Notes under the pieces: generated by a model
Database searches by the model: none
Seen by the model: only the letters and a program-made list of their open reading frames with translations
Told to the model about the DNA's origin: nothing
Part shown: positions 13,732-36,854 of the stretch, one piece after another
Layout: every line of letters starts with the position of its first letter
Numbering within the stretch: the stretch's first letter is position 1
Made by a program: the position numbers and the translations under genes
Assembly: GCF_009733735.1 (NCBI RefSeq)
Contig: NZ_WNJP01000008.1
Span: 1-39,057, forward strand
Reading direction: 5' to 3'
Origin: Sandarakinorhabdus oryzae
GTDB taxonomy: Bacteria > Pseudomonadota > Alphaproteobacteria > Sphingomonadales > Sphingomonadaceae
DNA: 39,057 nt

Positions 13732-16560
13732 AACAGCGGGCTCGCGCTGCCGGTCGATTGCCGCTCTCACCATTTTGGCCAGTTCGTCACGGCGATAGGG
13801 CTTCCTGAGCATCGGAAACACCCGTTCGGAAACCCCAGCCGGGCGTTCGGCGCGGTCGGCAAAGCCCGATGTCAGCAGCACCGCCAGGCCGGGCCGCAGC
13901 GCGAGGGCTTCGGCCACCAGCCCATGGCCATTGAGCCCGCCGGGCATGACGATATCGGTGAACAGCAGATCATAATGGCCGCCCTGCCGCACCAGTTCCA
14001 GCGCCTCGACGCCATTGCTGGCACTGGTCACCCGGTATCCCAGCAGTTCAAGCTGGGCCACCACCTGGCCCTGCACCATCGGATCATCCTCCACCACCAA
14101 GAGATGCTCGGCGCCGCGCGGCAAGGCCGTGGCTGCGGTCTTTTCCGGTGTGGGTTTGGCGGCCAGAGCAGCGCGCGGCAGCCACAATTCCACGGTCGTG
14201 CCATGGCCGGGGGAAGAGAGGATCTGCACCGCCCCGTGCGACTGCTTGACGAAACCATAGACCATCGACAGACCAAGACCGCTGCCCTTGCCAACGTCCT
14301 TGGTGGTAAAAAACGGCTCGAAGGCGTGCAGACGGGTGGCTTCGTCCATCCCCTCGCCGGTGTCGCTGACGGCGATCATCACATGAGCGCCGGGCGGCAG
14401 ATCGGGTGGGCGGTTGAACCTTTTGTCGTCCTGGTCAAAATTGCGGGTGGTGATCGTCACCGTGCCGCCCTCCGGCATGGCATCGCGGGCGTTGACCACC
14501 AGGTTGAGCAGCGCGTTTTCCAGCTGGGCCAGATCAACGGTGGCAGGCCACAGGTCGGGCGCGAGCTGCACCATCAATTCATTTGTGGCGCCAAGCGCTT
14601 GGCGCAGGAAATCCTCCATGCCCGCCAACAGCAGGTTGATGTCCACCGTGGCCGGTTCCAGCTGCTGCCGGCGCGAAAAGGCCAGCAGCTGGCGGGCCAG
14701 AACGGCGCCGCGTTCGGCGGCGCGGACGATCATGCCGGCCAACCGGTGCTGGAGCGGGCTTTCGCTCAGCCCCTCTTCCAGCAGTTCGGCATTGCCAAGG
14801 ATGACGGTGAGCAGATTGTTGAAATCATGCGCCACACCGCCGGTAAGCTGGCCAACGGCTTCGAGCCGGTGTGTCTGCCGCAACTGCGCTTCGACGGCAC
14901 GCTGCTGGGTGACATCGGTGACCATCATGCAGACGGCAGGGCCGTCATCCCAATTGAGACAGAACATCCGCGCCTCGATCTCCACCGGCCTGCCATCAGC
15001 GCGCTGGCCTTTGAGCACCATCATCTCTGGCGTGGGTTCATCGGCCAGCAGCGCCTTGATGATGGCGGCCATGCGGATGCGTTGCTCGTCGTCAAAAAAG
15101 CGCTCGAAGTTGGGAAGCGCCACGACATCGGCTTTTCCCGGCAAGCCAAGAATATAGGCCAGAGCATCATTGGCCATCAGGGGCTTCAGATCGCGCAGGA
15201 CCAATATGCCGATCGGCGCTTCGGCAATCAGTGTTTCCATGCTGGAATTGACGGCCTGCAGCGCCTGCTGCTGCCGGATGCGATCCGTGATATCCAGATG
15301 TGTGCCGATCAGCTTGGGCGGCGCGCCATCGATGCTAGGTAGCTGCCTGATGACACCCAATATGGTGCGCTTGATGCCGTCCAGTGACTGGATCGAAAAC
15401 TGACGTTCGGCCCGGCCGCCGTTGGCTATCACGGCATTCATGCCGGCCCGAATTCCAGGCCGATCCGCTTCATCGATCAGCGTGGGCCAGAGCGCCATGG
15501 TTGGCGCGACATCTGCTGGGACCGCATAAATGTCGTGCATCACCTGGTTCCAGGCCAGCGTGCCATCCTCTGCCAGTTCCCAAATGCCCATCCGGGCGGA
15601 ATCAACGGCCAGTGACAGGCGGGCTGCGGTCTCCCGATTCTCTTCCTCGATCCGGCGGCGTTCGGTAACATCAAGGCGCGTGATCACGGCGCCAATGCGA
15701 TCCTGATAGAGAATTGGTGTGGCGATAGCACGGATCCATAGCGGCCGCGGATCGCCTGGTTTGGGAAAGGCATATTCAATCTCGAACTGCGGCTGTTGCC
15801 CGGACAAGACTGACCGGACACCTGCCAACACTGCATTACCGGTTCCCGGCAAGGCCTGCTCCAAATCATGGCAGGAATCCAGATAATTGCCGCCGACCAT
15901 CATCTTGGGATTCAGGCGGCCATGCAAATCCAGAAAGCGATCCCAAAAGCCGTTGACCGCGATGATCACGCCATCATGGTCAATCAGGGCAACCTGCGCC
16001 GGCAATGCCTCCAGGATGGCGTCGCGCGTGGCGAGCAGGGACTGACGTGCGTCAGCCTCCTCCCGCAGTGACCGGTTGGCGGCTTCAAGTTCGATCGATT
16101 TTTCTTCGAGCTTGCGCACCAGCGTGGCGCTGTACTGGTGCAGCAGCAGCGGATTTTCCGCCTGTGCCGCCGCACTGGCCGGCTTGATCCGCTGCTCCAG
16201 CACCGCGCGCACGGCGGCGATCAGCGCTTCGGGCTGGGTGGGTTTCACCTGAAAGGCATCGGCGCCCATCGCGATGGCGAGCTGTTCATCCTCGGGCGCG
16301 GTATAGGTGGCGGTATAGACCATCACCGGCACATCGCGCAGCCGCGCATCGGCCTTCCAGTGGCGCAGCAGCGTATAGCCATCCATCACCGGCATCAGCA
16401 GATCGGTGATGCACAGGATCGGCAGGTGCTGCCGGGCCATCGCCAGCGCTTCGGCGCCATGGCGGGCCGCTTCCACCGTGAAACCATGGCCGGTCAGCAG
16501 GGCCTGCAGCAGATAGAGATTATCCGCCTTGTCATCGACAACAAGGATCGTGCCGGTCAC
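13723..16560 (-). CDS. Hybrid histidine kinase, REC-PAS3-HisKA-HATPase-REC
   Basis: This 945-residue soluble kinase is the last gene of the four-gene phosphorelay operon. It has an N-terminal receiver with Asp53 ([12 protein letters not shown]), a helical linker (about 140-180) and three PAS-type units (about 180-310, 320-440, 445-560). HisKA has His578 in [11 protein letters not shown]. HATPase_c has [21 protein letters not shown] and GKGSGLGLS. The C-terminal receiver has Asp869 ([13 protein letters not shown]). There is no transmembrane segment. Its kinase core is closely similar to that of the divergent five-PAS kinase, suggesting paralogues. The start codon is GTG 16560, overlapping the stop of the receiver gene (GTGA), so translation is coupled. 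The N-terminal receiver could accept phosphate from the upstream kinase, making a multi-step relay; this is inference. Confidence 0.93.
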
Positions 16561-34730: not shown

Positions 34731-35534
34731 GTGGTGGATTTCGCGGACTATTTCAACAGGATCGGGCTTCAGCGGCCACAGGGTGTGACGCGAGACACGC
34801 TGGCGGCGCTGCAATTTGCCCAGCGCGCAGCGATCCCGTTCGAGAATATCGATGTGCTCCTGGGGCGTGGCATCAGCACCGAGCCTGCGGCAATTTTCAC
34901 CAAGCTGGTGACGCAGCGGCGCGGCGGCTATTGCTTCGAACAGAACCAGCTGCTGGCGGGCGCGCTCACCGAATTGGGGGTGGCGCATCGGCTGGTGCTG
35001 GCCCGCGTCTGGTTGGGCGCAACCGAGATGCCGGCGCACACGCACCTGGCCGTGGTGGCCGAAATGGCCGGGCAAGCATGGCTGCTCGATGCCGGCTTTG
35101 GTGGCGGATATTGCCCGCCGCTGCCATTGGTGACCGGCAGTGTGGCCTCCGATGGCGAAGGCGCCCGATATCACCTGCATCATGACCCTGGCATTGGCTG
35201 GATCCTCGACCGCGAGGCCAATGGCTCGCTCGTGCGGCAATACAGCTTCACCCTGGCCGAGGTGTTCCCGGCTGATATCCGCCTGTGCAACCACTGGACG
35301 TCGACCCACAAGGCCTCGCGCTTCACGCAGCTGCTGGTGGTCAACCGGGTGACGGCGGCTGGCCGGCTGGGCCTGACTGGTGGCGATTTCGTCCGGGTTG
35401 CTGACGGCCGGTCAACGCATGCGTCCATCACCCGAGACCGATTGGGCCCGCTGCTCGCCGACGAATTCGGGCTGGAGCTGGACCCAGCCGATACTGCGGC
35501 GCTGGCACGCTTCGTCGAGGCCGTGAACGCATGA
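34731..35534 (+). CDS. nat: Arylamine N-acetyltransferase
   Basis: This 267-residue enzyme transfers acetyl from acetyl-CoA to arylamines, hydrazines or related acceptors via a Cys-thioester. The triad is visible: Cys68 in RRGGYCFEQN, His105 in HTHLAVV and Asp120 in WLLDAGFGGGY, with the same spacing as characterised bacterial NATs (69-107-122 in Salmonella). The length is within the usual 260-285. Starts GTG 34731 and GTG 34734 are both possible; GGGAGAG (34723-34729) fits the second slightly better. Its last five codons and stop lie inside the left arm of a 30-bp inverted repeat, so the C-terminus EAVNA may have been rewritten by that element. Confidence 0.93.
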   Translation: MVDFADYFNRIGLQRPQGVTRDTLAALQFAQRAAIPFENIDVLLGRGISTEPAAIFTKLVTQRRGGYCFEQNQLLAGALTELGVAHRLVLARVWLGATEMPAHTHLAVVAEMAGQAWLLDAGFGGGYCPPLPLVTGSVASDGEGARYHLHHDPGIGWILDREANGSLVRQYSFTLAEVFPADIRLCNHWTSTHKASRFTQLLVVNRVTAAGRLGLTGGDFVRVADGRSTHASITRDRLGPLLADEFGLELDPADTAALARFVEAVNA

Positions 35535-35785
35535 AATCCACCCTTCGTGATGGCCCGGAGAAGCCAAATCGGCGTTGGCGGGAGGCGAAGGCGGGGCAAA
35601 GCCCCCCGGCGAGCCGCCCGACGACGTTGATTTGGCTTCTCCGGGCCACCGCAGGCGGCGATATCCAGCCCGATGCAGCGCTCGCTGCGCTTGGGCGGTA
35701 GCGCCGCTACCGCCACGGCGCTTGCTCACTCGCCTCGGGCTGCATAGCGCCGTCCCGAAGGGTGGATTTCATGCGTTCACGGCCT
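35518..35785. repeat. Nested palindromic element with 30-bp perfect terminal inverted repeats
   Basis: The outer arms 35518-35547 and 35756-35785 are perfect 30-bp inverted copies (left begins AGGCCGTGAACGCATGAAAT). Inside, TGGCCCGGAGAAGCCAAATC (35551-35570) has a perfect inverted copy at 35629-35648. Further hairpins are GGGGC-AAA-GCCCC (35593-35605), GCAGCG/CGCTGC (35675-35688) and GGCGGTAGC-GCC-GCTACCGCC (35694-35714). The left arm covers the stop of nat and the right arm reaches the stop of galD. The open frames inside are low-complexity and are not called as genes. Confidence 0.9.
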
Positions 35786-36854
35786 AGAACACCACGCCGT
35801 CCATCAGCTTGCGCGCCGTGCGCAGCAGCGCGGCGGACTGAACCTGGCCGGCGGCATCGGTCGTCAGGATGCAGGTCAGCTCGCCGGTCGGATGTTCGAC
35901 CGACAATGTCTTGACCGCACCATCGGGAATCTGCGCCACGGCGGCGGCCGGCGATCCGGGCACCAGGCAGGCGGTGGCGACGCTGACGGCGCCGAGCACG
36001 CCGATGCTGGCGTGGGCGCGGTGCGGGATGAAGCTGCGCACGGTAATGGCGCCGCCCTGGCGCGGCGGGGCGACCAGCATCATCTTGGGCACGGATTTGG
36101 CCGCGACGTCGCCCAGGTTCATCAACGGGCCGACCGCCAACCGGATCGCCTCGATCCGCTGCTTCAGCGCGTCATCGGCATCGAGCGTGGCGCGGTCCTC
36201 ATAACCGGTCACGCCCACATCCGCGGCCCGCATCACCACGCAGGGCATGCCATTGTCGATCAGCGTCACCGGCACGCCGTTGATCACGTCGACCGCATTG
36301 CCGGTCGGCAGCAGCGCGCCGCAGCTGGAGCCGGCGGTGTCGCGGAATTCCAGCGGCACCGGCGCGTGGGTTCCCGGCACGCCGTCGATGCGCGCCGTGC
36401 CATCATAAATTACGCGGCCGCCCGGCGTTGCCACCGTCGCCACCGCGGCCTGGCCGGTGTTCTCCATGAAGATGGCAACATCGGTGGTGCCGTCCTGCGC
36501 CGGCACCAGCCCGCGCTCGATGGCGAAGGGGCCGACGCCCGCGAGGATATTGCCGCAATTCTGCGCATCGGTGACAATGGCCTGATCGACGAACACCTGC
36601 AGGAACAGATAATCGACGTCGATGCCCGGCCGGCTCGACCGGCTGACCACCGCCACCTTGCTGGTCAGCGGATCGGCACCGCCCATGCCGTCGATCTGCA
36701 CCGGATCGGGCGAGCCCATGATGCGCAGCAGCAGCGCATCGCGCGCCGCGGTGTCGGCGGGCAGGTCCGCTTTCAGGAAATAGCCGCCCTTGGAGGTGCC
36801 GCCGCGCATCCACATGCAGCGCACGCCTTGCGCCGGCTCGCTGGGCTCAGACAT
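35784..36854 (-). CDS. galD: 4-oxalomesaconate tautomerase (PrpF family)
   Basis: This 356-residue PrpF-fold isomerase has the signature [13 protein letters not shown] (14-26) and [16 protein letters not shown]. The conserved Cys segments are [16 protein letters not shown] and [11 protein letters not shown], with [20 protein letters not shown] near the end. The sequence follows the GalD pattern of Pseudomonas gallate catabolism through its whole length. GalD converts 4-oxalomesaconate from the keto to the enol form before hydration. PrpF methylaconitate isomerases are the main alternative, but the galC neighbour favours GalD. ATG 36854 overlaps the galC stop by 8 bp (ATGTCTGA), so translation is coupled. 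The TAG stop is at the edge of the palindromic element. Confidence 0.88.

Follow-up and report, generated by a model that had tools for sequence, protein, structure and literature searches.

Several families of short bacterial repeats have properties that bear on the locus described here. The MITEs RUP and the enterobacterial RU have TA at their ends, target TA, form stems and are thought to be moved by transposases of insertion sequences (IS) (PMC2229807, PMC2759123). Among the Alphaproteobacteria, MITEPye1 of Paracoccus yeei has IS-like ends and a long stem-loop, and is linked to IS1182 (PMC11578231). Repeats of this kind may also encode the ends of proteins: 58 CDSs are reported to overlap pneumococcal BOX repeats, with the repeat encoding the 3′ stop codon in 36 of them (PMC3049150), and QMITE2 of Coxiella burnetii provides a C-terminal extension of 33 residues in enhC (PMC5896051). 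For insertion sequences, the most relevant assemblage is the IS427 group of the IS5 family, with lengths of about 832–865 bp, two overlapping frames and 2-bp repeats (PMC3281130).

The window considered here, meaning the whole stretch of DNA that was analysed, comprises 39,057 nucleotides of Sandarakinorhabdus oryzae (the source genome). It contains a complete palindromic element between the convergent 3′ ends of nat and galD (Table 1). The features examined below suggest, with a probability of roughly 0.8, that this element is a non-autonomous MITE with ends of the IS5 family, IS427-like in character, which targets YTAR sequences.

Table 1. Features of the palindromic element and its neighbours (window coordinates).
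Feature	Position	Strand	Remarks
nat (arylamine N-acetyltransferase, PF00797)	34731..35534	+	EAVNA and TGA = 35517-35534, in element and boundary codon
Left target dinucleotide, GA here (originally TA, as inferred)	35517..35518	+	First two bases of GAG, replacing the inferred nat TAG
Complete cloverleaf palindromic MITE-like element, 268 bp including terminal A..T	35518..35785	.	30-bp perfect arms; own-genome family; 94% copy at C399:781-1048
Left arm of outer stem = terminal inverted repeat AGGCCGTGAACGCATGAAATCCACCCTTCG	35518..35547	+	Perfect; family ends resemble genus IS5-family ends
Left inner arm	35548..35650	.	Perfect 20-bp pair 35551-35570 / 35629-35648; GGGGCAAAGCCCC tip at 35593; limits approximate
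Right inner arm	35655..35753	.	GCGGTAGCGCCGCTACCGC tip at 35695; limits approximate
Right arm of outer stem	35756..35785	-	Perfect reverse complement of left arm
galD (4-oxalomesaconate tautomerase, NF033377)	35784..36854	-	Ends ..GVVF-TAG at element boundary
Right target dinucleotide TA	35785..35786	+	With element C at 35784 = CTA, galD TAG on minus strand

The preliminary description had reported two perfect 30-bp inverted arms enclosing a second perfect 20-bp inverted pair, and both lie exactly at the positions given in Table 1. It had also called the palindrome nested; the palindrome stands, but the structure is more exactly branched and cloverleaf-like, with one outer stem and two long arms. 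Between these arms, 18 of 23 aligned copies carry a full CCC-NNN-GGG mini-hairpin, which completes the cloverleaf; a form shorter by two bases is present in the window copy and in four close relatives. The predicted RNA fold of 35515–35788 has a free energy of −207.6 kcal/mol (z −15.6), and none of 200 shuffles is equally stable. There is no further pairing beyond either end of the outer arms, and elsewhere in the window the longest inverted pair (for pairs of at least 14 bases within 300 bp) is an 18-base self-palindrome at 14588. No transposase frame is present within the 268 bp.

The element belongs to an interspersed family with a length of about 267 bp. R1, a covariance model built on the left arm from 21 sequences and matching the window copy at 35548–35657, identifies at least 13 copies in the source genome. 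It also has matches in at least 16 of the 24 genomes of the genus set and, in a sample of the family, in at least 11 of 199 genomes and at least seven of 96 genera, the source included; all are lower bounds, with 150 candidates scored per genome in the genus set and 19 in the family sample. Partial DNA matches in two genomes (G008 and G015) fall outside the 16. The closest source copy is that on C399, which is located between other genes; further source copies are more distant.

A set of 46 elements, 12 from the source genome and 34 from relatives, forms the basis of the counts given below; broken or partial copies were left out, as was the 13th source copy (C24), which has no TA at either end. 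Core lengths are 263–301 in 44 of the 46, and the other two are shortened. When up to 600 bases are compared at E 1e-10, no flank is common to any two of these elements, in a search whose control returned all 92 self-matches; at E 1e-3, flank matches consist only of stretches of 21 to 48 bases. Two elements, L012 and L013, are omitted from alignment A1; in L013 (1394–1696, on source contig C21), the left arm contains an additional hairpin of about 36 bases. In L172 (1468–1663) and L187 (1470–1656), both shortened copies, the outer stem and left arm are kept and most of the right arm is gone. Four whole-element queries gave no match in plasmids, and the matches there to two short queries from the ends were all short, in one record and in 36 records (E up to 10, mostly Rhizobium). 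A 16-base arm pattern occurs in 91 stretches of the genome contigs, in which BLAST of the element returns matches of 31 bases at most.

The stems vary among copies and yet stay paired. In the 23 aligned copies, the outer stem retains 26 to 30 Watson–Crick pairs out of 30, and for 72 of 106 pairs there is at least one copy in which both partners have changed. Covariation scores 0.548, compared with 0.144 after shuffling and no more than 0.097 with slid partners. Pairing holds for 96.0% of cells in the structure as a whole, a share that is biased towards the consensus structure, as this was voted from folds of the same sequences. Mispairs over all stems amount to 32 G.T and 31 A.C, a tally of sequences rather than of events; the ratio of G.T to A.C is 23 to 5 in the left arm, 1 to 16 in the right arm and 8 to 10 in the outer stem. 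Between the two closest source copies, four pairs within five columns have changed on both sides, and four other pairs on one side only. Template switching can give rise to clustered double changes of this kind (PMC8794818).

Such strong covariation, together with the very stable fold, the conserved hairpin tips and the position of the window copy between convergent 3′ ends, is also what a structured RNA or bidirectional terminator would offer, if it were kept by selection at gene ends and its mobility were secondary. This explanation is the best of the alternatives, but it is unlikely. If selection acted on one RNA strand, one type of mispair should prevail, and since G.T and A.C are nearly equal overall, with no G.U excess on either strand despite the lopsided single arms, selection on RNA is not favoured. 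Furthermore, no Rfam family reaches its gathering score in 35000–36300, where there are seven weak matches, and no intrinsic-terminator-like site was found in 35450–35850. Among the 46 copies there are no insertion sites common to species, and at least one of them (L003) sits immediately ahead of a gene that is read as pyrroline-5-carboxylate reductase. The earlier proposal that a hairpin RNA might shield both convergent 3′ ends is a prediction from folding, and the pattern of stem changes lends it no favour. Instead, because the arms change as Watson–Crick pairs in the absence of an overall G.U excess, correction of one arm by the other at the DNA level is favoured; arm-to-arm copying, by template switching within the palindrome, is likely to be the main process that keeps the long stems paired. 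A natural series of long palindromes whose stems change in step, and show no overall RNA bias, could make template-switch repair measurable in the wild.

The ends of the element, which are AGGYCGTGAACTCAT-like and AGGGTCAGGACCC-like, match those of IS5-family insertion sequences from the genus. The IS4/5-type transposase domain PF13340 occurs in 10 of the 24 genus genomes. An 18-mer from the element ends (up to three mismatches) is found at eight of 24 PF13340 loci, compared with two of 59 control loci and none of 72 shuffles (Fisher 5e-4, a rough value given four overlapping pairs among the 24 loci). Both control matches are copies of the element itself; at the remaining 16 PF13340 loci, element-like ends are missing. 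These probes, taken from the element ends only, replaced an earlier motif count (nine of 24 against one of 59), for which the motif had been written after those loci had been viewed.

A whole insertion sequence of the genus, L252, has a length of 832 bp and the ends TAGGTCGTAAACTCAT and ATGAGTCTACGACCTA, and contains two overlapping IS5-family frames, of which the first scores above the NF033580 cut-off and the second below it. In its length and its two overlapping frames it resembles the IS427 group, of which it may be a member. An IS of the same kind is present on an IMG/VR contig (L236), where a PF13340 plus DDE transposase lies between CTAGGTCGTGAACTCATAAA and TATGAGTCTACGGCCTAG. The sequence AGGNCGTGAACTCATAAA occurs in 15 IMG/VR contigs (L235–L249), and in only one of them, in the IS of L236, is there a mirrored 18-base end within 4 kb downstream. 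In 13 of the 15 it is preceded by T, and the sequence that follows mostly differs, as if the end were common to several elements. A lone AGGGTCTGAAATC at C377:24008 had no partner on reading.

The enzyme that moves the element is probably a common bacterial jumping-gene enzyme of the IS5 type. The source genome has no PF13340 match and no transposase with matching ends; its present-day mover may be missing, unassembled or of another kind. Branched hairpins, and sites that lack a clear target duplication, would also suit a Y1 (IS200-like) transposase, of the REP/RAYT type or another, acting through single-stranded hairpins. This alternative is very unlikely, as the element ends match IS5-family elements and the Y1 domain PF01797 is absent from the source genome and present in only one of the 24 genus genomes; a Y1/RAYT transposase was rejected as the mover. 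The single PF01797 locus in the genus set (L162, G008:C27) has no element end, its best match showing five mismatches in 18, which is the level of shuffles.

The cloverleaf shape is not confined to these ends. Six loci from other genera of the family (L213, L214, L215, L216, L217 and L221) have the same shape with quite different outer stems, namely AGACCCTGTTTC.. or AGAGC..TTTCCG..; each is a long, nearly perfect palindrome, and several begin with TAG. It is conceivable, if somewhat doubtful, that the cloverleaf core is a selfish unit that has acquired several terminal repeats and hence uses several transposases. If so, arm-to-arm copying would spread a new end from one side to the other, and the element could change hosts and enzymes while keeping its insertion at stop codons.

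Insertion sites can be examined directly where relatives lack the element. The search for such sites covered five of the 12 joined source sites, using a query of 2497 bases (the five sites together have three more), and was restricted to rows in which a single match spanned the junction. At four source loci, all the relatives fetched (5, 6, 5 and 4 rows) are without the element, the fourth alignment (L011, 4 rows) being ragged. At the L004 site, six relatives read TGA|TG, a TGA stop that overlaps the next ATG; the source copy is located between T and GA, so that the old frame now terminates in TAG and the ATG that follows is preserved. The L003 copy has TG on both sides. These empty sites show past insertion, presumably by transposition. 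The preliminary description had considered a mobile palindromic element, and this part of it is supported by the copies in the source genome, the empty sites in relatives and the ends shared with IS5-family elements.

TA stands to the left of 25 of the 46 elements and to the right of 34; 18 have it at both flanks and 41 at one flank or both. The left TA is part of YTA in 22 of 25, and the right TA is part of TAR in 32 of 34. Exceptions include the window copy, with GA on the left, and the C399 copy, with TT on the right. Two explanations suit copies flanked by TA at one end and TN at the other equally well: a TA duplication whose inner base was later repaired, or a terminal A..T without any duplication. 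In the mechanism envisaged, a transposase acting in trans would insert the element at T|R positions, above all at TA within YTAR or CTAG. This DNA has few sites of that type, many of which are stop codons.

Membership of the Caulobacter CIR, or CcrM-linked repeats with side arms, is highly improbable: arms are likewise described for CIR elements, but according to the cited portion of that account these expose the motif GANTC (PMC2229807), whereas only five of the 46 elements contain any GANTC at all (the left flanks have 0.31 per 267 bases).

In 27 of the 46 copies, the longest open frame on at least one side ends in a stop codon that starts with the boundary TA; in 10 copies this applies to both sides. 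For background YTAR sites in the same loci, the corresponding numbers are 17 of 63 and, for both strands, three of 63 (Fisher 0.0014 and 0.014, for frames of at least 100 codons defined without gene calling, and with copies within one genome partly non-independent). A rationale may lie in the sequence of the element itself, which starts with GG after the target TA. Because the first base after TA is G, insertion into a stop codon would rebuild TAG; where two convergent genes share CTAG, TAG would be rebuilt on both strands, and the copy would separate the genes and break neither. Insertion at stops would then be neutral. The rarity of the target accounts for part of the coincidence, and selection against gene breakage may account for the rest. 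This offers a simple account of harmless entry into a compact genome: the target is often a stop codon, and the first base of the element rebuilds it. In practical terms, a copy located at a gene end is a potential source of error for gene callers and for screens of RNA structure.

In the window, the end of nat reads GTC GAG GCC GTG AAC GCA TGA. As the preliminary description had noted, the left arm encodes the last codons and the stop of nat: five codons (EAVNA) are read into the arm, and the TGA (35532–35534) lies inside it. On the other side, the galD stop TAG (minus strand, 35784–35786) straddles the end of the right arm. The same description had proposed, as part of one option, that the C-terminus of nat was replaced, which is not entirely accurate. 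Of 29 NAT homologues compared (71 other genomes gave a match), 21 stop at or before the column of V262 of nat, and EAVNA is the end of none; the homologues extend roughly to the insertion point, and nat has probably gained five codons rather than lost an end. In all five genus relatives compared, galD ends in VFA or VFG followed by TGA, one residue beyond the galD of the window.

The simplest history would start from nat and galD ending on one shared TCTAGA, with the element landing in its TA. The galD gene would still end on the rebuilt TAG, and a single later T-to-G change at 35517 would have turned a former nat TAG into GAG, thus adding EAVNA. Within the genus set NAT is found in the source genome only (one of 24), so the empty nat–galD site has no comparison genome there, and no genome showed the TCTAGA ancestor. 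By the test proposed in the preliminary description, its other option, that a fragment of nat was inversely duplicated on the spot, is refuted, although the left arm does carry nat codons: the palindrome has at least 13 interspersed copies in the source genome, one of them 94% identical and between other genes, and none of the 29 NAT homologues has the EAVNA end.

On titles and abstract openings among the matches listed, no description of this element family was found in the open literature. The comparison with described systems is nevertheless instructive. The genus IS L252 is like the IS427 group, represented by IS1248 and ISPpa2 of Paracoccus (832 bp, 2-bp repeats; PMC3281130), in size and frames, and its ends are like those of the element; in contrast to that group, the element forms a single long palindrome that lacks a transposase gene. 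MITEPye1 shares with it an alphaproteobacterial host, IS-like ends and a long stem-loop, but is tied to IS1182 rather than to IS5. QMITE2 resembles the window copy as a MITE through which a gene gains extra C-terminal residues; neither a cloverleaf nor a stop-rebuilding end is described for it in the part of the source cited here. BOX is built of boxA- and boxC-type modules, and the cited section on it does not describe a mechanism that rebuilds CTAG or TAG. Like the element, CIR repeats have side arms, but the element mostly lacks their GANTC. RUP and RU share the short length, TA target and stems; going by the cited portions of those accounts, the element alone is a branched cloverleaf with a 30-bp outer stem that changes in step, and is often found at stops. 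From its sequence features the element is best filed as a MITE, one that is unusual in its cloverleaf, in the paired change of its 30-bp stem and in its coincidence with stop codons.
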